This document shows, piece after piece, positions 47,306-61,190 of a DNA stretch of 64,000 bases; position 1 is the first letter of the stretch; each line of letters begins with the position of its first letter. Both the position numbers and the translations under genes were made by a program. The notes below the pieces were generated by a model. It was not told where the DNA came from, did not search any database, and worked only from the letters and a program-made list of their open reading frames with translations. The DNA comes from a virus. Location of the stretch: the IMG/VR virus record IMGVR_UViG_3300020190_000023, positions 1-64,000 of that record; one strand, given 5' to 3'.

Positions 47306-49348
47306 ATGATAGAATCTAAGGATGGTAGTAACCAAAACAAAGGTAAAGGTAACGAGAATTCCCCGACACCTGTTTTGGACAATTTTAGTAGAGATTTAAT
47401 AAAGTTAGCGGAAGAAGGTAAATTAGACCCTGTAATTGGTAGAGAACGTGAGATAACAAGAATTGCACAAATTCTTTCAAGAAGAAAAAAGAATAACCCA
47501 ATCATTATTGGCGAACCAGGTTGTGGTAAAACTGCAATTGCCGAAGGATTAGCTATTAAGATATTCAATGGGGAATGTCCAAGAAACTTAACTGATAAAA
47601 GAATTGTATCATTAGATATGACCTCAATTGTTGCAGGTACAAAATACCGAGGTCAGTTTGAGGAAAGAATGAAAGTAATAATTGATGAACTTCAAAACAA
47701 TTCAAATATTATTGTATTCATAGATGAAATTCATACAATAGTTGGTGCTGGTAATTCTTCAGGTTCCTTGGATGCGTCAAATATATTTAAACCCGCATTA
47801 GCGAGAGGTGAAATACAATGTATTGGTGCCACAACACTTGATGAATATCGAAAAAATTTCGAGAAGGACGGAGCATTAGAAAGGAGATTTCAAAAAGTAA
47901 TTGTTGATTCTGCAACAAAACAAGAAACTTTAGAGATTTTAAAACATGCAAAAGACAAGTACGAGACATACCATAAAGTCTCATATACTGATGAAATACT
48001 TAACTTATGTGTTGATTTGGCTGAACGGTATATCACAGATAGGGAATTTCCAGATAAAGCGTTTGATATTATAGATGAGGTTGGCGCAAGAAGTCAAGTT
48101 GATATAAAAATGCCTGAAATTATTGAAAAATTAAAATTACAAGCTCAGGATATTAAATTAGAAAAAATTGAAGTTGTAAAAAAACAAAACTACGAAGAGG
48201 CTGCAAATTTAAGAGATAAAGAAAGACGAATTTTAGATAAATTAGACTCCGAAAAGAAAAAATTTGAATCTGAATTACAAAACCAAAAACGAGAAGTTAG
48301 TCTCGAATTAGTTTATGAAGTAGTTTCAAACATGACTAAAATTCCGATTTCAAAATTAAATTCTGATGAGACTCAATCATTGACTAAATTAGAAGAGAGT
48401 TTAGGTAATAAAGTTATTGGTCAATCTGAAGCGGTTTCTAAAATTGCAAAATCAATCAGAAGAAATAGATTAGGTATTAAAGACCCTAATAAACCGATAG
48501 GTTCTTTTATTTTCTTAGGGTCCACAGGTGTTGGTAAAACATATTTGGCAAAACAATTAGCAAAAGAAATATTTGGTAGTGAAGAAAATTTAATTCGAGT
48601 TGACATGTCGGAGTTTCAAGAGAAACATACGATTTCAAGATTAATCGGGGCACCTCCAGGATATGTAGGTTATGATGAAGGTGGACAACTAACTGAACAA
48701 GTTAAAAATAAACCGTACTCTGTTATTTTATTTGATGAGATTGAAAAGGCGAATAAAGATATTTTTTCATCACTATTACAAGTTTTAGATGATGGTCATA
48801 TTACTGATGGTCTTGGTAGAAAGATTAATTTTAAAAATTGTGTCATCATTATGACATCTAATTTGGGAGTTAAAAAATTACAGGATTTTGGTTCTGGTGT
48901 CGGATTTAAAAGTAATAACAATACATATATTGAGGAGGAATATAAACGAGACTTGTTGAAGAAGGAATTACAGAAGTTTTTTGCACCTGAATTCTTAAAC
49001 AGGATTGATGAAATAGTTATCTTTAATTCTCTTAAAAAGGATGAAGTTAAATCGATAGTTAAATTGGAACTTGATAAATTATTTGAAAGGTTGGTTAATC
49101 TGAAATATCAGATTACTTATGATGATACTATTTTAGATTTAATCTCTGAAGTTGGGTTTGATGAAACTTACGGGGCAAGACCTATTAAAAGAGCAATACA
49201 AGATAAGATTGAGGACTTTATTTCCGAAGAAGTATTAAAAGGTAATATAAATGAACAAACAAAATATATTCTATACGTAGAAGAAAAAGAAATCAAAATA
49301 AAGACAGTACCTGTTAAAAAGGGTAGAAAGAAAAAAGGGGATGAATAA
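47306..49348 (+). CDS. clpC: ClpC/ClpA-like AAA+ unfoldase lacking the N-domain
   Basis: The protein has 680 residues and two AAA+ modules. D1 has Walker A GEPGCGKT near residue 70, pore motif KYRGQFEERMK and Walker B IVFIDEIHT. D2 has GSTGVGKT and pore loop GYVGYDEGG. A UVR-like motif (NYEEAANLRDKERRILDKLD) lies between them, as in ClpC. In D2, SGVGF is at the position of the ClpP-docking loop. The family's usual N-terminal adaptor domain is absent and replaced by ~30 disordered residues. It probably unfolds substrates for a ClpP, host or phage. It is the only gene between a late-type minus operon and the M20 peptidase. Confidence 0.9.
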   Translation: MIESKDGSNQNKGKGNENSPTPVLDNFSRDLIKLAEEGKLDPVIGREREITRIAQILSRRKKNNPIIIGEPGCGKTAIAEGLAIKIFNGECPRNLTDKRIVSLDMTSIVAGTKYRGQFEERMKVIIDELQNNSNIIVFIDEIHTIVGAGNSSGSLDASNIFKPALARGEIQCIGATTLDEYRKNFEKDGALERRFQKVIVDSATKQETLEILKHAKDKYETYHKVSYTDEILNLCVDLAERYITDREFPDKAFDIIDEVGARSQVDIKMPEIIEKLKLQAQDIKLEKIEVVKKQNYEEAANLRDKERRILDKLDSEKKKFESELQNQKREVSLELVYEVVSNMTKIPISKLNSDETQSLTKLEESLGNKVIGQSEAVSKIAKSIRRNRLGIKDPNKPIGSFIFLGSTGVGKTYLAKQLAKEIFGSEENLIRVDMSEFQEKHTISRLIGAPPGYVGYDEGGQLTEQVKNKPYSVILFDEIEKANKDIFSSLLQVLDDGHITDGLGRKINFKNCVIIMTSNLGVKKLQDFGSGVGFKSNNNTYIEEEYKRDLLKKELQKFFAPEFLNRIDEIVIFNSLKKDEVKSIVKLELDKLFERLVNLKYQITYDDTILDLISEVGFDETYGARPIKRAIQDKIEDFISEEVLKGNINEQTKYILYVEEKEIKIKTVPVKKGRKKKGDE

Positions 49349-51663: not shown

Positions 51664-52061
51664 GGGGGTAACCTTGGAAATTGACTGTCATAGTTAGTTA
51701 CTCGGGGCACGTCAAGGATGAATCTAACCTTGTTAAAATGGTTCAAAATCGATAAACGGCAACGTTATCAACAAACTTTCTGCAGTAGGACTTGTTCGTA
51801 CTGAGGAAGTGGCGGTAGCTTAATCAGATTAAGCGAAACCTTCGGGTCGGTGGACATATAACCCAGGAACAGAAGTCTTTACAAAGGTGTGGTTTCTACC
51901 CGAAAAGGAACAAGTGGAGGATTAGTTCTCAGTAAACCGAACCACTTTAAAAATAAGGGAATTGTGAAATTTCGGAACATTAGCTCAAATGTTGACCTAA
52001 GCGTGTAGTCCTTAGTAGGTAATGTGAGCAGGACGCGGTTCGACTCCGCATACCTCCACCA
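51664..52061 (+). ncRNA. ssrA: Transfer-messenger RNA (tmRNA), one-piece
   Basis: The RNA is ~398 nt. The tRNA-like half is complete: 5' GGGGGTA (51664-51670) pairs with 3' TACCTCC, followed by A and an encoded CCA ending at 52061. The T arm has loop TTCGACT, and upstream is the conserved CCTAAGCGTGTAGTCC segment. The tag frame probably runs from GGC at 51758 to TAA at 51821-51823 (21 codons), beginning GNVINK and ending TEEVAVA. The stop codon lies in a perfect 7-bp hairpin (GCTTAATCAGATTAAGC), as in known tmRNAs. The tag ends AVA, not the usual ALAA. It rescues stalled ribosomes; the phage copy may also retag or relabel proteins. Confidence 0.9.
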
Positions 52062-52100: not shown

Positions 52101-54314
52101 TTATCTAAAAGTTGTTAAATGTCCAAACATTTTTTTTCTTCCGTCATTTTCGGGTATACCAAATTCTAACTTCCATAAGTAGACACCGTCTTGACAGTAG
52201 TTACCATTAAAAGTACCGTCCCACCCAACTAAAGGGTTTTCACTAACCCATATTAATTCTCCCCATCTATTATAGATTTCCATTCTAAAATCATATGGGT
52301 CAAGTCCTGATGTAAATACAGGTTTCCATATATTGTTATGTTCATCTCCATCAGGTGTGAATGAGTTTGGTATATATATCAACTCTTCAGGGCATTCGTC
52401 AATAATAACTGTAGTTTGTTCTGGGTTAGAAATACATCCGTTTGTTGTTGTGGTAACTGAAATTATATAAGTTCCTTCACTACTAAAAGTTTGATTGTAT
52501 GCTTGGGTATTATAAATACTATCAATAAATGACCATTGATTAATTCCTTGAGGATTTGATGTCAATTCAAAATTGATGTTAACCGAATCTCCCATACAAA
52601 CTTCAAAAAATGGGTTTGACGGTGTTAAGGTTTCAATTATCGGTTGTGGGTAAACAATAATTGTCTCGGTTGTTGTAAACAAACATCCACTTTGTGTGTA
52701 AGTATACGTTATAAGATTATTACCAACCGCATTTATGGGAAAAAAATCATTATTTATAACACCATTTCCTGTATAATAACCACCAATAGGTGATGATTCT
52801 AAAGTAACAAATTCGTCATAAGAACAGAATGGACCGACAGGATTTATAAAAGGTGTAAGATTAAAAATAGTTATATCGATTAGTTCTGTTTGAGACTGAC
52901 ATCCGTTTCCGTCAATACCGTATACAGTTATCATGTTATTGTAAAAACCTGATTGGGTACCATTAACGTCAACAGTAATCTGATTTGTTCCTTGTCCGTT
53001 ATTAATAATTCCGTTGGTTGTTGACCAAACATAATTTAAACCCGTAATTAAATTTGTTGTGTTATAAAAATCACTAATAGAATTAATACATATAGTATCC
53101 TCACCAACAATAGGGTTTATAATTAGTGGTGGAGGGTCCATTAATGTAACGTTACTTGTTATTGTACACCCTAAAGCATCTGTTAAAGTAAAAACATAAT
53201 TCCCTGAACATAGGTTGTTTGGATTGAATCCAGATTGGGGTCCATTCCATGAAATTGTTTGAGCTCCATTACCTCCATTCGGAGTTATTATAAGACTACC
53301 ATCACAATACCCGTTACAAGTTGGTTCATTAGATATTATGGTTGGTAAAGGTAAATTAGGTGGACCAGGAACAACTAATACAGTATCAGGACCTAAACCA
53401 AGTGAACCATTACATGTTACCCATCCTGCATTACATGTCGGATATACAAAATGACAGGTGTAACTCGCTCCCGCGGCAGGTGGGTTAACCGTTATTGATG
53501 GACCCGTCCCTATTGGTATAGGATTACCAACCTGATACCAAGTTAATGTCGGAGTCACTACAGGTCCTGAAGGTGTCCATCTCCAAGAATCATTTTGTGC
53601 AACCCAAGCGGTTGAGTTTCTTCCTGGTACTGTTATCCCAATTGTACCTGCTAAATTATGGATACCCTCAACAGAAGTTCCATTTTGCCATTGTAGACAT
53701 GCAGGTTTACTTTGAATGTGATTTTCTATGATATTAGTTGTTTCATAAATTATAATGTGAAACGTACCAAGATTAGAAGTACATGAATACATTGGCATAT
53801 TAACCCAACTAACAATTAATTTACGACAAGGTGCAACTCCTTGAACTTGGTATTTTATTTGACCACCAATTCCAGGGTGCCAATCTTGCCAAGGACCCAT
53901 TATACAATTTTTTGGTACTAAGCCATTAGTTGTTGGTATTGATTGAGAAGTAAATGTTGTTGGTTGGTTTGGCGAAAAAGATATCCATCCGTTAGACCCT
54001 ATCCAAAATTGAGTATACGTCGTACCAAAAAAACAAAAATTAAAACCTATATTAAACGGACCCTGTTGGGAATCATCGGTCATTGTTAAATTAGTACCGT
54101 TATTTACTTGAGCAACGTAAGGTATATTTGTTACATTATAATTTGTTGTTTGATTTGGATTAATACCCCCAACTCCACATTGGGTTAAGTCCGCGGTAAG
54201 TGTTGTTGAGTTGGACCCGCAAGGTAATAATTGGTCAGGACCTAAATATGGACAGTATTGTCCGAAACCGACAAAACTAATTAGGTAGGTTAAAAGTGCT
54301 AAAATATTTCTCAT
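52101..54314 (-). CDS. T9SS type B (gliding-motility-associated C-terminal) cargo protein
   Basis: The protein has 737 residues. A Sec signal peptide (MRNILALLTYLISFVGFGQ) opens it. A beta-rich domain with many Cys and Trp fills ~25-260 (IGFNFCFFGTTYTQFWIGSN). An SprB-like repeat (NEPTCNGYCDGSLIITPNGG) comes near 335-390, then PKD/Ig-like domains. The last ~85 residues are the CHU_C/type B CTD that directs export by the type IX system: PNSFTPDGDEHNNIW, YNRWGELIW, GWDGTFNG, DGVYLWKLEF. This is a complete Bacteroidota surface protein within phage genes. It may alter the host surface or motility; origin by transfer from a host is likely. Confidence 0.9.
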   Translation of the reverse strand: MRNILALLTYLISFVGFGQYCPYLGPDQLLPCGSNSTTLTADLTQCGVGGINPNQTTNYNVTNIPYVAQVNNGTNLTMTDDSQQGPFNIGFNFCFFGTTYTQFWIGSNGWISFSPNQPTTFTSQSIPTTNGLVPKNCIMGPWQDWHPGIGGQIKYQVQGVAPCRKLIVSWVNMPMYSCTSNLGTFHIIIYETTNIIENHIQSKPACLQWQNGTSVEGIHNLAGTIGITVPGRNSTAWVAQNDSWRWTPSGPVVTPTLTWYQVGNPIPIGTGPSITVNPPAAGASYTCHFVYPTCNAGWVTCNGSLGLGPDTVLVVPGPPNLPLPTIISNEPTCNGYCDGSLIITPNGGNGAQTISWNGPQSGFNPNNLCSGNYVFTLTDALGCTITSNVTLMDPPPLIINPIVGEDTICINSISDFYNTTNLITGLNYVWSTTNGIINNGQGTNQITVDVNGTQSGFYNNMITVYGIDGNGCQSQTELIDITIFNLTPFINPVGPFCSYDEFVTLESSPIGGYYTGNGVINNDFFPINAVGNNLITYTYTQSGCLFTTTETIIVYPQPIIETLTPSNPFFEVCMGDSVNINFELTSNPQGINQWSFIDSIYNTQAYNQTFSSEGTYIISVTTTTNGCISNPEQTTVIIDECPEELIYIPNSFTPDGDEHNNIWKPVFTSGLDPYDFRMEIYNRWGELIWVSENPLVGWDGTFNGNYCQDGVYLWKLEFGIPENDGRKKMFGHLTTFR

Positions 54315-54326: not shown

Positions 54327-54399
54327 AAAAACTAAGATTTAAAAGTTGTCACAATAATGTTTTGAATGAGCAAGTCTACCTTATGAATTAATATAAAAT

Positions 54400-54445
54400 A
54401 AAAAAAAGAGGGAAGAATTTAACATTACGTTAGTTCTTCCCTCTT
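54400..54445 (-). terminator. Strong intrinsic terminator of the ncRNA locus
   Basis: A perfect 12-bp stem (AAGAGGGAAGAA with TTCTTCCCTCTT) and a T run at the minus-strand 3' end. It is the first terminator met by transcripts from the three promoters near 56400-56800. Confidence 0.9.
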
Positions 54446-54821
54446 GTTTGTCCTAGGAATCTAAACCTACCGAGTTGTTAGTGAGACAACTACAGAACCC
54501 TGTGACGTTGGGTGGTGACTAGTATTCACGACTATTTGTTTTATGTGTTTTCCGTTTTAAGACCTAAACACTGTGGTTATCATAGTACCCACATCTAAAA
54601 AGAGGTCCCTTACCAATTTTTTTCTCAAACTTCTTCAGTCTTTGGATTGACACCTCAAGGTAGAATTCATTTTTTATTAATTTTTAAGGATTAAAATTGG
54701 TCGTTATCAACTACAGAACAATCACCAAAAACCTTTACGAGAATTTTGAAGGTTAGTTTATACTCATAACTTCACGGGATATCGTTAATTACCGACCTAT
54801 CATTTGTTTGGAGTCACTTAG
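54446..54821 (-). ncRNA. Non-coding 3' segment of the large RNA locus
   Basis: No frame over 60 codons was supplied on either strand here. Short complementary arms are visible on the minus strand, for example GTGG/CCAC around a TATGATAA loop, GTGTTT/AAACAC, and AGTTGT/ACAACT around a seven-nt loop near 54500. The segment runs from the tRNA fragment into the terminator and would be the 3' end of any read-through transcript. I cannot assign a family. Confidence 0.4.
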
Positions 54822-54880
54822 TAGCGGGTGAGGGACTCGAACCCCCGTATTCGGCTTATGAGACCGAGCTGGAAACCACC
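54822..54880 (-). pseudogene. tRNA-Met(CAU) 3' fragment fused to GIY-YIG frame
   Basis: On the minus strand, the anticodon arm TCGGT-CTCATAA-GCCGA (anticodon CAT), the T arm with loop TTCGAGT and a 3' acceptor strand ACCCGCT plus A are recognisable. No complementary AGCGGGT 5' strand or proper D stem exists upstream. The GIY-YIG frame enters here and stops at TAA inside the anticodon loop. The element is probably a tRNA disrupted by insertion of the endonuclease gene. Confidence 0.6.
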
Positions 54881-55392
54881 ACGATATTTTTTGTATAATA
54901 CTGTTTCATTATTTCAGAATGTTTTTTTCTCGTTTCTTCATTTTGAAATCTTAATTTCGCCTTTTCGGAAAGTTTTAGTTTTGTACTTTCACTAAGAACT
55001 CTTTTTCTATTTCCTTCAGAAATTTTATTTCTTGTTTCTTCAGAAAAAATTCTACCTTTACTAATATCTGATAATTTTTGTTTAGTTTCATTAGTATGTT
55101 TTTTTCCTTTGAAATTAGAACCTCCTTCACCCCCCAAGGATTTATTATATGTATCTTTCCTTTTAATGAATTCTTCGGTAACTATCTCTCGTTCTTTTAA
55201 ATCCATTTCATTCTCGGTATTGAATATGAACAAAATTTCTTTAGTGAAAAATTTTTTACCGTATTTCTTTATTGCTTTCTCTAATAAAACACCAGAACCA
55301 AAATAACTATCATTAATATTTTCTGTTTGGTGCTTACCTATGTAAATTTTGTTATTTAACGTATTTGTAATTTTGTAAATTGTATATTTCAT
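54856..55392 (-). CDS. GIY-YIG homing endonuclease with NUMOD3 repeats
   Basis: The protein has 178 residues. The nuclease module opens YTIYKITNTLNNKIYIGKHQ, with the conserved Arg/Lys and FGSGVLLEKAIKKYGKKFF. A Glu-containing helix follows (MDLKEREIVTEEFI), then a DNA-binding tail of NUMOD3-type repeats: KKHTNETKQKLSDISKGR, then SEETRNKISEGNRKR, then a third. The last ~11 residues (IVVVSSSVS-type) are encoded by the tRNA fragment and are probably not original. Such genes invade tRNA and other conserved loci. An ATATTTAT box precedes it. Confidence 0.85.
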   Translation of the reverse strand: MKYTIYKITNTLNNKIYIGKHQTENINDSYFGSGVLLEKAIKKYGKKFFTKEILFIFNTENEMDLKEREIVTEEFIKRKDTYNKSLGGEGGSNFKGKKHTNETKQKLSDISKGRIFSEETRNKISEGNRKRVLSESTKLKLSEKAKLRFQNEETRKKHSEIMKQYYTKNIVVVSSSVS

Positions 55393-55396
55393 ATAT

Positions 55397-55404
55397 ATAA
55401 ATAT
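55397..55404 (-). promoter_or_regulatory. ATATTTAT late promoter box
   Basis: The box is 4 nt upstream of the GIY-YIG start at 55392. Confidence 0.4.
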
Positions 55405-55429
55405 ATCATTTTTAAACTAACGAACTACC

Positions 55430-56374
55430 TTTTTACGTTTAACAATGTATAGCTAAAAAAAGGCTGAGATTACACCTGTTAATTGAGAACCTTTAGAGTC
55501 ATTATTGTTTCTACTCTTATCCACTTCCTTTTAAGAAGTATTCCTCAGTGACGGTCTTTTAGGTTTACCACTCCTTGAGATTTTGGTTACTCTCTTATTA
55601 CTCAACTCTCTTCGAGGATGCCTCCCCAATAAATCCTTGCGGGACTAGAGGTCTTTGGTAAAACTACACTCAGACTTGGGGTCCTTGTGTGCAATGAACG
55701 GCTCATTACTATGTAGTCACCTTTCACCAAAACCTGATGGACACTTTTCCTTTATGTTCTTAAATGTTACTTCAATAATAGTAAAGTTTTTGTGTCGTGG
55801 ATGAATCGAAGTAGTGGTCCACCTTAAGCTCCATTTCCTTTTGAGAAACAGAATACTATACTACTCCGTGAGATATCCCTACCTCCATATTTTAAGATTA
55901 CTTCGTACCAAGACCTTGGTGGGTCTGTGGTAAGGATAGTAGCGACACCACTCGTTCTCTATCTTACCTTCAGGTATTACCCCTTCGGTTTTAAGTCACC
56001 TCTCATATTGGAACCCGCAATCATGTATTTGGAAATACATTTCTCACTTGATTCCTATGGGTTATTCTTATTGGTGTTCCCACCTCAAACAGACAATCCA
56101 CATTGCCTATTCAGTTTTCCATTTCCCTACGAAGTTATCCTCGGTACTACAGGCTCACTGATATCCCACTTGTATACTCGAGTTCGGTTTCCCAAACCGC
56201 AGAACCACTAACACTGATGGTTCCACTTTATCCCCCTTTCGAGGTTTATTTTATGGACTATATACGGCCCAATATCTTTATCAGTTTCAGTTTCAAATCC
56301 TAAGATTTTAATCTACTCCTGAATGGATATCTAAAATTTCAAAGAACGTTATCGGACGTTTCCGATTTGTTTTA
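55430..56374 (-). ncRNA. Candidate large structured non-coding RNA (~0.95 kb)
   Basis: A ~1.1-kb gap (55393-56530) holds no convincing gene. On the minus strand it begins at a consensus host-type promoter (56375-56406) and a boxA-like leader. The region is less A-rich than the coding DNA. It contains clear paired elements: CGGTTT/AAACCG with a three-nt loop near 56190, and a ~10-bp arm GGTAAG-ATAG with CTATCCTTACC near 55930. Location by a tRNA relic in a phage recalls the GOLLD and ROOL large-RNA classes, but I cannot verify membership. It could be novel. Confidence 0.5.
56337..56366 (-). promoter_or_regulatory. P3 leader: hairpin and boxA-like GTTCTTTGAAA
   Basis: After the P3 -7 box comes a hairpin ATCGG/CCGAT (56351-56366) and then GTTCTTTGAAA (56337-56347), close to Bacillus-type rRNA boxA. 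The P1 leader has the same order with ATCAG/CTGAT, a compensatory base-pair change. Confidence 0.55.
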
Positions 56375-56406
56375 CAAAGTTAAGAACAATTTTTTAAACT
56401 TCCAAA
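56375..56406 (-). promoter_or_regulatory. Host-type promoter P3
   Basis: TTTG-N20-TAACTTTG on the minus strand, reading into the large non-coding region. Confidence 0.75.
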
Positions 56407-56482
56407 TTTTTCTCTACTTTTTTTTTCAGATTTAGGAGACCTTTGTTTTACGGTAATTCCAACCTTTATCTGAAAGGTTTTA

Positions 56483-56512
56483 CAAAGTTAAACAATTTTT
56501 TTTAATTGTCAA
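56483..56512 (-). promoter_or_regulatory. Host-type promoter P2
   Basis: TTG-N19-TAACTTTG on the minus strand. It is followed by TAAAACC and a CCTTT/AAAGG hairpin, but no boxA. Confidence 0.7.
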
Positions 56513-56530
56513 GTACTTTGTTAACTTTTT

Positions 56531-56695
56531 TCATTTTCCCTCTACCTCTTCCACTTTAGTTACGTAGACAGTGTATGTCTCGTAAAAATTAGCACGTGCC
56601 TGTGCTAAATTTGGATTTGGGGTGTGGTACCTAACACCGTTTTTTCCAATGTAGGAAAAAATCAAGTTATCAAGAACTTGTGTCCCTTCACTCAT
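56531..56695 (-). CDS. Small protein between promoters P1 and P2
   Basis: This 54-residue frame begins MSEGTQVLDNLIFSYIGKNG and contains RYHTPNPNLAQARANFYETY. The charged C-terminus ends VEEVEGK. It is the only sizeable frame in the P1 transcript and has codon use like its neighbours. It does not resemble a known family. It may be the coding part of an otherwise non-coding locus. Confidence 0.5.
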   Translation of the reverse strand: MSEGTQVLDNLIFSYIGKNGVRYHTPNPNLAQARANFYETYTVYVTKVEEVEGK

Positions 56696-56727
56696 TTTTC
56701 GAGTTTTTAAAAGTTAATACTAAATTA

Positions 56728-56757
56728 TTTAAAAGAACGTTATCAGTTATTTCTGAT
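56728..56757 (-). promoter_or_regulatory. P1 leader: hairpin and boxA-like GTTCTTTTAAA
   Basis: A hairpin ATCAG/CTGAT (56742-56757) precedes GTTCTTTTAAA (56728-56738), arranged exactly as in the P3 leader. Confidence 0.5.
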
Positions 56758-56765
56758 TTGTTTTA

Positions 56766-56795
56766 CAAAGTTAAACATTTTTTTCTTTCTGACAA
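56766..56795 (-). promoter_or_regulatory. Host-type promoter P1
   Basis: TTG-N19-TAACTTTG on the minus strand, upstream of the 56695 small gene. The same initially transcribed TGTAAAACAAATC follows as at P3. Confidence 0.7.
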
Positions 56796-56912
56796 GTACT
56801 TTAAGAAAAAAAAAATAAAAAAGTTCCGAAACAGTCATTTCGGAAATATTGGTTTCTATATTAATTTAATAAAAATTAATTAATTGGTTATTGATTTATA
56901 AACATTAAACCT

Positions 56913-59008: not shown

Positions 59009-59040
59009 AAAAAAAGTATGACTTTTCGTCATACTTTTAT
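59009..59040. terminator. Terminator after RNA ligase gene
   Basis: An 11-bp stem AAAAGTATGAC / GTCATACTTTT with a TTTTC loop, overlapping the end of the 59037 gene. Confidence 0.85.
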
Positions 59041-60089
59041 AGTTTTCTAAACTCAGGTTTTAATAATCTCCATATTATGTAGTCATATGGTTTTTTATCC
59101 CACATAGCAAATAGTACAGGACGTAAACCAGTTTTTGTTACATTTCTCATAACAAATTCTGCAAATTCTTTTTTAGTTGGTTCAGGGTCAACATCACCAT
59201 ACTTACCATATCTAAAACCATCATGTAGTTTACCACAATACTCATTTATTTGATGAAAATGGTATTTTAAATCCTTTTCATAAGATTTTATCTTATCATA
59301 AAATTCATCAGGAACATCATTTAATAATTCACCTATATCTCCTTGATTACTTAAAACTTCCCAAACAGAAGTAGTTGATATGTTAGTCATTATTTTATGT
59401 AATCGAAGATATTCTTCTCCTTTCACTTTTATTCTATTTCCATTAAAAAATTTTACTATAAAACCTTCATGGTTATCGGCAACCATTTTTTTCAAAAAAG
59501 TGTAATCAGTTATTCCATCATATTTTTTAACAACATTAAAGTTATTCCGATATGATTCCACGTCAAGTTCTTCACCAGACTCAGTTACTATTTTACCTAA
59601 TAATACCACATCTCTTAAATCACCATAGTTAACCACTATTCTATTTTCAGGATATAATATTTCAAACAAATAAGTACAAGAAAAGTCTAATAAATTAGTC
59701 GAATATTTTTCATCAAATATTTTTTTGAATTCGGCTGATTGGTCTGAAGTAAAAGAACCTTTAGATGCAAATATCCATTCACCTTCATAGTTAAATAATA
59801 TACCTAAAGAACCATCCATTTTTTCATACACATCAAATTCTTTAGTTGGTGTGAATCTTTTTTCTTCTATATTAAAAAATTTTTTAAATGGTCTTGCAAC
59901 AACGTTACTATTTTCATCAACAACTAAACCTCTTGCTTGAGTAGTTACCTCATCCCATAAAGCGTATTGATTATATAAAAGACCATATTGTACTTTTGGG
60001 GTGTAGTTCCATATAGACAAAGGAAGAGTTGGATGAACTTGTTTTGTCACCAACCCATCCTCGTAATATTTGTTCAACAATTCTAACAT
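59037..60089 (-). CDS. T4 Rnl1-like RNA ligase
   Basis: The 350-residue protein is close in length to T4 Rnl1 (374). Motifs include ARGLVVDENSNVVARPFKKF (motif before the active site), the nucleotidyl-accepting Lys in YEKMDGSLG near residue 89, FASKGSFTSDQ, LFEILYPENRIVV, EGFIVKFFNG and RIKVKGEEY. T4 Rnl1 repairs host tRNA cut by suicidal nucleases. This gene's place near RNA genes supports an RNA-repair role. It starts at ATG 60089, 4 nt after a TATATTTG box. Confidence 0.9.
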   Translation of the reverse strand: MLELLNKYYEDGLVTKQVHPTLPLSIWNYTPKVQYGLLYNQYALWDEVTTQARGLVVDENSNVVARPFKKFFNIEEKRFTPTKEFDVYEKMDGSLGILFNYEGEWIFASKGSFTSDQSAEFKKIFDEKYSTNLLDFSCTYLFEILYPENRIVVNYGDLRDVVLLGKIVTESGEELDVESYRNNFNVVKKYDGITDYTFLKKMVADNHEGFIVKFFNGNRIKVKGEEYLRLHKIMTNISTTSVWEVLSNQGDIGELLNDVPDEFYDKIKSYEKDLKYHFHQINEYCGKLHDGFRYGKYGDVDPEPTKKEFAEFVMRNVTKTGLRPVLFAMWDKKPYDYIIWRLLKPEFRKL

Positions 60090-60104: not shown

Positions 60105-61190
60105 TTATTTTTCGTTTAATAAAAATTTATTACTAATTGCTTTAAAGCTAATTCTTCTATCGTAAGAACGAACAACCACACCTTCTCTATCAAAGTTAGA
60201 ATTTAATTCGGACTTTTGGTTGGCATATTCTAACATATCATCAATCGTGTCAGGTAAATTAAATTCAAAGTCTAATATTGGAACCGTTTTTAATTTCATT
60301 TTTTGAACTAACTCAACAAACTCTAAAAATGGAATATTCTCTTGAGTGTCTATATTAAAACCATTAAAGAATCGAACTGTTTGACCTTTAATTTTGTACG
60401 GATTTCCTTGAATACCTTCCCCAATTAACTCACCTTGCAAACAGATATTGTTATCTAATTCACCTAATAATTCCTCTAACTTTAATTCGCGAGCAACTTT
60501 CCAAAAAGTATTTCCTTCACTTTCAGTTAATTCTAAATTACGAGAACACACTCCAAATACACCATCTTTAAAGTAAAATGTTGCTGAAGAACCGTCCAAC
60601 TTTTCAGTTACGTAGAATTTATGAGCGGAGGTGAATCTGTATCCTTGGTATTCTTTAGCCAAGTTTTGGACTCTCTCTTCATCGGTTTTACGTAAGAAAG
60701 ATGGAAACAATCCTTTTACTTTTCCTGTAAGTTCTGCAGGGATTGGTGGTTCGTATTTAACAATACCTAATATTTCAGTAACATCATCACCAATTCCAAC
60801 CATAGGAAAACCATCTTCTGCAAACATTTCATACTGAATACCCCATTCTTGTTTTGATGTTGTCATCATAGGAATATCAGTAGTTTTTAAAACAGATAAA
60901 GGTAAAATTAAACCTTGTGATACTTGACCACGAAGTTTAATAGTTTTTAAACGGAAACCTTCTTGGTCACCCATCTTTTTGTGTGAACTCTTTCTTAAGA
61001 ATTCAAACTCGTCTCTGATTGGTAAGAATGAATCAATTTCACAGTAAACAACTTTATCACCTACCTTATGACCAACATTCTTAGCAACAACAACTTTCCA
61101 ACCATCAACGATGGCCAATTCAATCATATCAGCATCAGGGATTCTTTGGATATCCCCGATAACTCTAACACTTGCTAATTTTCTTTCCAT
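60105..61190 (-). CDS. Rnl5/DraRnl-type RNA ligase with N-terminal OB-like domain
   Basis: The protein has 361 residues. The N-terminal ~150 residues form an OB-like domain (RKLASVRVIGDIQRIPDADM, DKVVYCEIDSFLPIRDEFEF) as in the Deinococcus RNA ligase group. The ligase core has FYVTEKLDGSSATFYFKDG (active-site Lys near 196), VCSRNLELTES, LQGELIGEGIQG and EGVVVRSYDRRISFKAI. This group can seal nicks in RNA-containing duplexes. It lies 15 nt upstream of the Rnl1-like gene, so two different RNA ligases probably share one transcript. Confidence 0.85.
   Translation of the reverse strand: MERKLASVRVIGDIQRIPDADMIELAIVDGWKVVVAKNVGHKVGDKVVYCEIDSFLPIRDEFEFLRKSSHKKMGDQEGFRLKTIKLRGQVSQGLILPLSVLKTTDIPMMTTSKQEWGIQYEMFAEDGFPMVGIGDDVTEILGIVKYEPPIPAELTGKVKGLFPSFLRKTDEERVQNLAKEYQGYRFTSAHKFYVTEKLDGSSATFYFKDGVFGVCSRNLELTESEGNTFWKVARELKLEELLGELDNNICLQGELIGEGIQGNPYKIKGQTVRFFNGFNIDTQENIPFLEFVELVQKMKLKTVPILDFEFNLPDTIDDMLEYANQKSELNSNFDREGVVVRSYDRRISFKAISNKFLLNEK

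Follow-up and report, generated by a model that had tools for sequence, protein, structure and literature searches.

Introduction

GOLLD RNAs are among the largest RNA-only assemblies known, and neither a function nor a dedicated protein partner is given for them in the literature that was searched. In other members of the family, 14 copies of the RNA form a cage, and expression rises during lysis (PMC12286853). ROOL RNAs form cages as well, and it has been suggested that the cages hold tRNAs or other cargo, with ribosome binding in pull-down experiments also being cited (PMC12286853). Known GOLLD RNAs are approximately 900 nt long, are carried by phages, adjoin tRNA-Met and other tRNA genes, and consist of a separate 5′ domain and a conserved 3′ domain, the only part spanned by the Rfam model RF02032.

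The stretch of DNA analysed here, called the window, is 64 kb of the 100,219-base IMG/VR virus record IMGVR_UViG_3300020190_000023. Its GOLLD RNA shares this length, setting and domain layout and is a member of the known family. What is the window's own is that the phage is of the Bacteroidota type, that tandem promoters and an rRNA-like leader precede the RNA, and that an extra structured 3′ module of approximately 390 nt and a linked microprotein accompany it. The module, the leader and the microprotein appear to be new; like the tandem promoters, they were not found described in the literature searched (PMC12286853, PMC6582537), which did not cover the original GOLLD paper of 2009 or the Mycobacterium GOLLD paper of 2020.

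Overview of the locus

Table 1. Features of the GOLLD unit and its surroundings (positions in the window).
Feature	Position	Strand	Details
Promoter 1	56766..56795	-	Bacteroidota type (TTG-N-TAnnTTTG)
Box after promoter 1 (with hairpin)	about 56738-56731	-	boxA-like GTTCTTTT
Microprotein gene	56531..56695	-	54 codons, conserved; between promoters 1 and 2
Promoter 2	56483..56512	-	followed by hairpin without box
Promoter 3	56375..56405	-	fixed distance to GOLLD in nearly all relatives
rRNA-like leader	56340..56366	-	hairpin ATCGGA-AACG-TCCGAT, then boxA-like GTTCTTTG (56347-56340)
GOLLD RNA, whole	55461..56370	-	~910 nt
GOLLD 3′ domain	55461-55868	-	part covered by RF02032; 5′ domain lies upstream
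GIY-YIG homing endonuclease gene	54856..55392	-	in tRNA slot; Pfam SegE_GIY-YIG and NUMOD3
tRNA-Met(CAU) relic	54822..54880	-	without 5′ acceptor and D-arm; scores 27.9 bits (gathering score 29)
GOLLD 3′ module	54400..54818	-	second conserved structured RNA
Module P1	54814-54811/54765-54762	-
Module pseudoknot	about 54611-54603/54565-54559	-
Module P6	54593-54589/54576-54572	-
Module P7	54571-54566/54550-54545	-
Module P9	54513-54510/54500-54497	-
Module P10	54491-54486/54478-54473	-
Module P11	54469-54466/54457-54454	-
Terminator of whole unit	54399..54444	-	intrinsic; arms 54444-54434 and 54417-54407, then T8
737-aa phage protein gene	52101-54314	-	PKD-like domain and T9SS type B sorting domain (CHU_C/TIGR04131)
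Phage tmRNA gene	51664-52061	+	convergent to GOLLD unit; RF00023, 81.7 bits
ClpA/ClpB-like ATPase gene	47306-49348	+	double AAA; near tmRNA gene
RNA ligase genes	59037-60089 and 60105-61190	-	near GOLLD unit; one T4 Rnl1-like (Pfam), the other RNA_ligase family

The original prediction, made from sequence alone, had named three minus-strand promoters, boxA-like leaders, a GIY-YIG gene, a tRNA-Met relic, a strong terminator and, in passing, a further non-coding ~375 bp. All parts were confirmed, with positions that were exact or off by at most one base. The promoters occur far above chance across GOLLD loci; boxA-like leaders were found after promoters 1 and 3, and promoter 2 is followed by a hairpin only. 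Pfam confirmed the endonuclease gene, and the tRNA relic scored just below the Rfam gathering score. The terminator closes the whole unit after the module, and the ~375 bp are non-coding as stated, forming the second conserved structured RNA. The idea that the leaders resemble those of stable, antiterminated RNAs is supported by the comparison with 110 Bacteroidota 16S leaders described below. What had been missed is a gene, the conserved microprotein ORF between promoters 1 and 2.

The RNA of the locus is GOLLD

The large RNA of the locus is GOLLD, and not ROOL or an intron. In cmscan, RF02032 reached 314.4 bits (gathering score 150) and was matched over positions 1-416 of 416; this was the only strong Rfam match in the region. 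Further marks of the family are also present: a large structured 5′ domain (RNAalifold z of -17.7), a total length above 800 nt, and a phage location near tRNA genes, given here by the tRNA-Met relic downstream and the tRNA cluster of the record. No gene is contained in the GOLLD interval. The earlier expectation of a large structured phage RNA of the GOLLD or ROOL sort held, and a search with the GOLLD, ROOL, group I and group II covariance models, which matched GOLLD only, settled the choice that had been left open between these RNAs and a new class. ROOL, although alike as a large phage RNA near tRNAs, was rejected, having no covariance-model match at gathering or permissive thresholds.

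By BLAST, up to 927 nt from the last promoter to position 55454 are approximately 65–84% identical in most of 174 GOLLD loci. The complete ~910-nt RNA, including the 5′ domain, is kept in more than 100 phage contigs, and the loci that conserve it include those of two phages of more than 630 kb. Many of these loci are near-identical copies, and most are fragments. A GOLLD pattern search of 84,980 bacterial genomes returned zero matches, and prophages therefore gave no clue to the host.

PHROG matches comprised a major head protein, a portal protein and the large subunit of terminase. The terminase matches were to T4-like phages and Flavobacterium phages, and together these findings point to a T4-like phage. 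The T9SS sorting domain at the C-terminus of the neighbouring 737-aa phage protein and the Bacteroidota type of the promoters make a Bacteroidota host very probable. From its sorting domain, we infer that this protein is probably exported via the type IX secretion system of the host. Taking the anatomy and the single-unit reading together, the locus is likely to be one non-coding RNA transcription unit in a large T4-like phage that infects Bacteroidota, although no transcript data are available.

Tandem promoters and an rRNA-like leader

Sequences upstream of GOLLD in 76 distinct loci were compared using the promoter pattern TTG-N18-22-TAnnTTTG. A mean of 2.4 matches per 560 nt was found, compared with 0.027 in shuffled sequences, and the end position of the last promoter is fixed in nearly all of these loci. 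The tandem promoters are real and conserved, as shown by comparison and without transcript data. In nearly all loci GTTCTTTG follows 26–28 nt past the last promoter, and the hairpin between promoter and box carries compensatory changes (TCGG/CCGA, TCAGG/CCTGA, CTTGG/CCAAG) in 47 of 56 distinct leaders.

The commonest 8-mers among the 110 Bacteroidota 16S leaders were TTCTTTGA (40 leaders) and GTTCTTTG (39 leaders, with 0.22 expected). Because GTTCTTTG is common in these leaders, the GOLLD leader is considered rRNA-like; it places a boxA-like motif of host rRNA leaders at a fixed distance after the promoter, which is what marks a leader of the rRNA type. Like bacterial rRNA leaders, with their promoter and boxB/boxA elements, it consists of a host-type promoter, a hairpin and then the box, but it drives a phage non-coding RNA, and a role for Nus factors is only inferred. 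That the leader supports antitermination, with Nus dependence and readthrough, is likewise an inference, which we put forward tentatively.

An exchangeable tRNA-Met slot

In relatives, an intact tRNA-Met lies between GOLLD and the module. In the window, the 3′ end of the endonuclease gene runs into the tRNA-Met relic. The window matches the relative L076 up to ATACATTGT, approximately at the start of the L076 tRNA; the GIY-YIG gene then follows, and the tRNA resumes at 54880 with its 3′ part only. This comparison shows that the endonuclease gene took the place of the 5′ part of the tRNA-Met. The gene resembles the SegE-type GIY-YIG homing endonucleases of T4-like phages in being free-standing and in having GIY-YIG and NUMOD3 domains, and is unlike them in its position in a tRNA slot between GOLLD and a 3′ module. 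It is present at 100% identity in L033, L043, L046 and, partly, L025, which are probably close relatives of the window's phage. The slot is exchangeable, since L041 and L047 have modules that are approximately 98% identical and quite different tRNA-Met genes.

A second structured RNA downstream of GOLLD

In relatives without the endonuclease gene, an intact tRNA-Met comes after GOLLD, or is missing, and a non-coding module of approximately 390–430 nt is next, with the terminator last. The module contains no ORF, has no match in Rfam (best E-values of 1.2 or higher, far below gathering scores), and is absent from the named phages that were searched. Seventeen representatives, less than 97% alike, were aligned, and they share short motifs, kept among sequences that are only 30–55% identical, together with many compensatory changes.

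The fold of this alignment without the terminator was well supported against column shuffles (z of -7.2). In the strand-swap test, for which windows were placed by sequence anchors, support was obtained for P10 (z of -7.1), P7 (-5.5), P9 (-4.6) and the pseudoknot (-3.2); it was weak for P2 and P11 (about -2), and P3 was unsupported. In an alignment made by sequence only, 92.9% of cells pair, compared with 79.2% after shuffling, and the covariation score of 0.406 (0.170 shuffled) was reached by none of 500 shuffles. These comparisons show that the module is a conserved structured RNA, separate from GOLLD and not in Rfam. The window's module alone folds no better than shuffled sequence (z of +0.92), and the support for its structure is therefore comparative only; such a value can possibly occur with an AU-rich, pseudoknotted RNA.

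Wherever module-bearing loci extend far enough, GOLLD lies 5′ of the module and in the same orientation, and pattern and covariance-model searches for GOLLD-free copies gave only chance matches outside GOLLD loci. It is missing from approximately 80% of GOLLD loci, and so it is not needed for GOLLD function in general. On the GOLLD tree, about 8 changes explain its distribution, which marks it as an old part that is lost or exchanged; L008 and L049 are a close pair of which the first has the module and the second lacks it. Away from typical loci, a covariance model of the module core gave weak scores that represent chance or divergent forms (L115, L011, L040). As a separate observation, these three loci, with their weak matches to the module, and L182 have a late terminator and a divergent or candidate second type of module.

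GOLLD and the module share a terminator

The position of the terminator was scored in distinct loci by a strict requirement for a hairpin and T-run. A terminator beside GOLLD was found in 0 of 17 module-bearing loci and in 80 of 91 others (Fisher p of about 8e-13); in the module-bearing loci, the terminator is located at the 3′ end of the module instead. The 300 nt ahead of the module held no Bacteroidota-type promoter in any of 18 loci. Because the terminator shifts to the module 3′ end, GOLLD and the module very probably share one transcript, for which there are no transcript data.

A microprotein linked to GOLLD

The ORF between promoters 1 and 2 is one of a family encoding proteins of 43–59 aa, and 65 of 101 distinct loci carry a member upstream of GOLLD. 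Differences among the members number 198/192/537 at the first, second and third codon positions, and because they are mainly at third positions, the protein is considered to be under purifying selection. When IMG/VR was searched with the protein and without reference to GOLLD, 80 loci were found, and in each of the 64 where 700 nt or more of sequence follows, GOLLD lies downstream on the same strand. The query was a closer subset of the family, and because that family was drawn from GOLLD loci, distant relatives that occur without GOLLD cannot be excluded. Conservation shows that the ORF is a real, GOLLD-linked microprotein gene; there are no expression data.

The microprotein had no match in Pfam, PHROG, PDB sequences or named phages, and a fold search against the PDB gave nothing significant. 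AlphaFold predicts for it a small beta-beta-alpha-beta fold, with moderate confidence (pLDDT of 76). The stop codon is usually 40–220 nt ahead of GOLLD. A third of GOLLD loci do not have the microprotein, and it is therefore not needed for GOLLD function in general.

A proposed working of the unit

The identity of GOLLD, the conserved promoters and leader, the covarying module, the shared terminator and the linkage of the microprotein are established; the following is built on them by inference. Host RNA polymerase would start transcription from tandem Bacteroidota promoters, of which there are two to four, and the hairpin and boxA-like leader would load Nus factors that spare the long untranslated RNA from early termination. 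The transcript would contain, in order, the microprotein ORF (when started at the upstream promoter), GOLLD, the tRNA-Met slot, the ~390-nt module and the terminator. By homology to the member studied by cryo-EM (PMC12286853), GOLLD would fold and assemble into an RNA cage. Where intact, the tRNA would probably be a processing point at which RNase P and 3′ tRNA processing part GOLLD from the module. The likeliest role of the module and the microprotein is that of accessory components dedicated to the GOLLD particle, with a part in its assembly, cargo or regulation. These functional steps (antitermination, co-processing, cage formation and what the module and the microprotein do) are, however, somewhat less likely than not.

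A bolder reading places GOLLD, in phages of Bacteroidota, at the centre of a particle with several parts, in which the dedicated ~50-aa protein binds the cage, the module is attached or packed, and the whole is made during infection from an antiterminated, rRNA-like transcript. As a whole, this reading is somewhat less likely than not. The published ideas on cargo and ribosomes (PMC12286853) fit the frequent presence of tRNA-Met and phage tmRNA beside GOLLD. The linked microprotein (64/64), the very probably cotranscribed accessory RNA and the rRNA-like leader offer handles on cage binding, cage production and the role of the linked tRNA, and with the first two of these the biology of GOLLD can be tested.

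Alternative explanations

The alternative that survives best sees the module as a small RNA in its own right, which only borrows GOLLD as its transcription unit and acts in trans. In its favor, most module loci have a tRNA-Met between GOLLD and the module that would be excised, the tree changes and the L008/L049 pair indicate that the module moves or is lost, and the near-identical modules of L041 and L047 follow different tRNAs. Against it, the module was never found without GOLLD, it has no promoter of its own, and no tRNA intervenes in L147, L186, L106 and L113. This alternative is somewhat less likely than not.

It is also possible, though less likely than not, that the ORF encodes a leader peptide or has a regulatory role, governing transcription into GOLLD by attenuation or readthrough, and that its product does not bind GOLLD. 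The location of the ORF between the upstream and GOLLD-proximal promoters, with its stop a short distance before GOLLD, is consistent with this. The purifying selection on the protein sequence, the predicted beta-beta-alpha-beta core, which is unlike typical leader peptides, and the absence from a third of loci argue against it.

That the module is an unstructured spacer or decayed sequence ahead of the terminator would agree with its ordinary single-sequence fold, but is very unlikely given the compensatory changes in several helices, the strand-swap results, and the motifs conserved despite low identity. A group I or group II intron, or intron remnant, around the GIY-YIG gene is suggested by a tRNA interrupted by a homing endonuclease gene, but is all but excluded by the lack of any intron-family match around that gene, even at permissive thresholds, and by the tRNA, which is intact without an intron in relatives and merely misses its 5′ half in the window.

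Neighbouring genes

An opposite-strand tmRNA gene 3′ of GOLLD is present in many relatives, 8 of the 13 sampled (Rfam or ARAGORN); further loci with this arrangement are L324, L112, L186, L111, L013, L032, L061, L055 and L067. The ClpA/ClpB-like ATPase encoded near the window's tmRNA may possibly serve the breakdown of tagged proteins. The tRNA cluster of the record is located at 65.5–69.5 kb. In L002 and L003, the loci from the phages of more than 630 kb, GOLLD is followed by tRNA-like genes that were poorly typed by ARAGORN, and in L005, L010 and L053 it is followed by long arrays of more than 10 tRNA genes.
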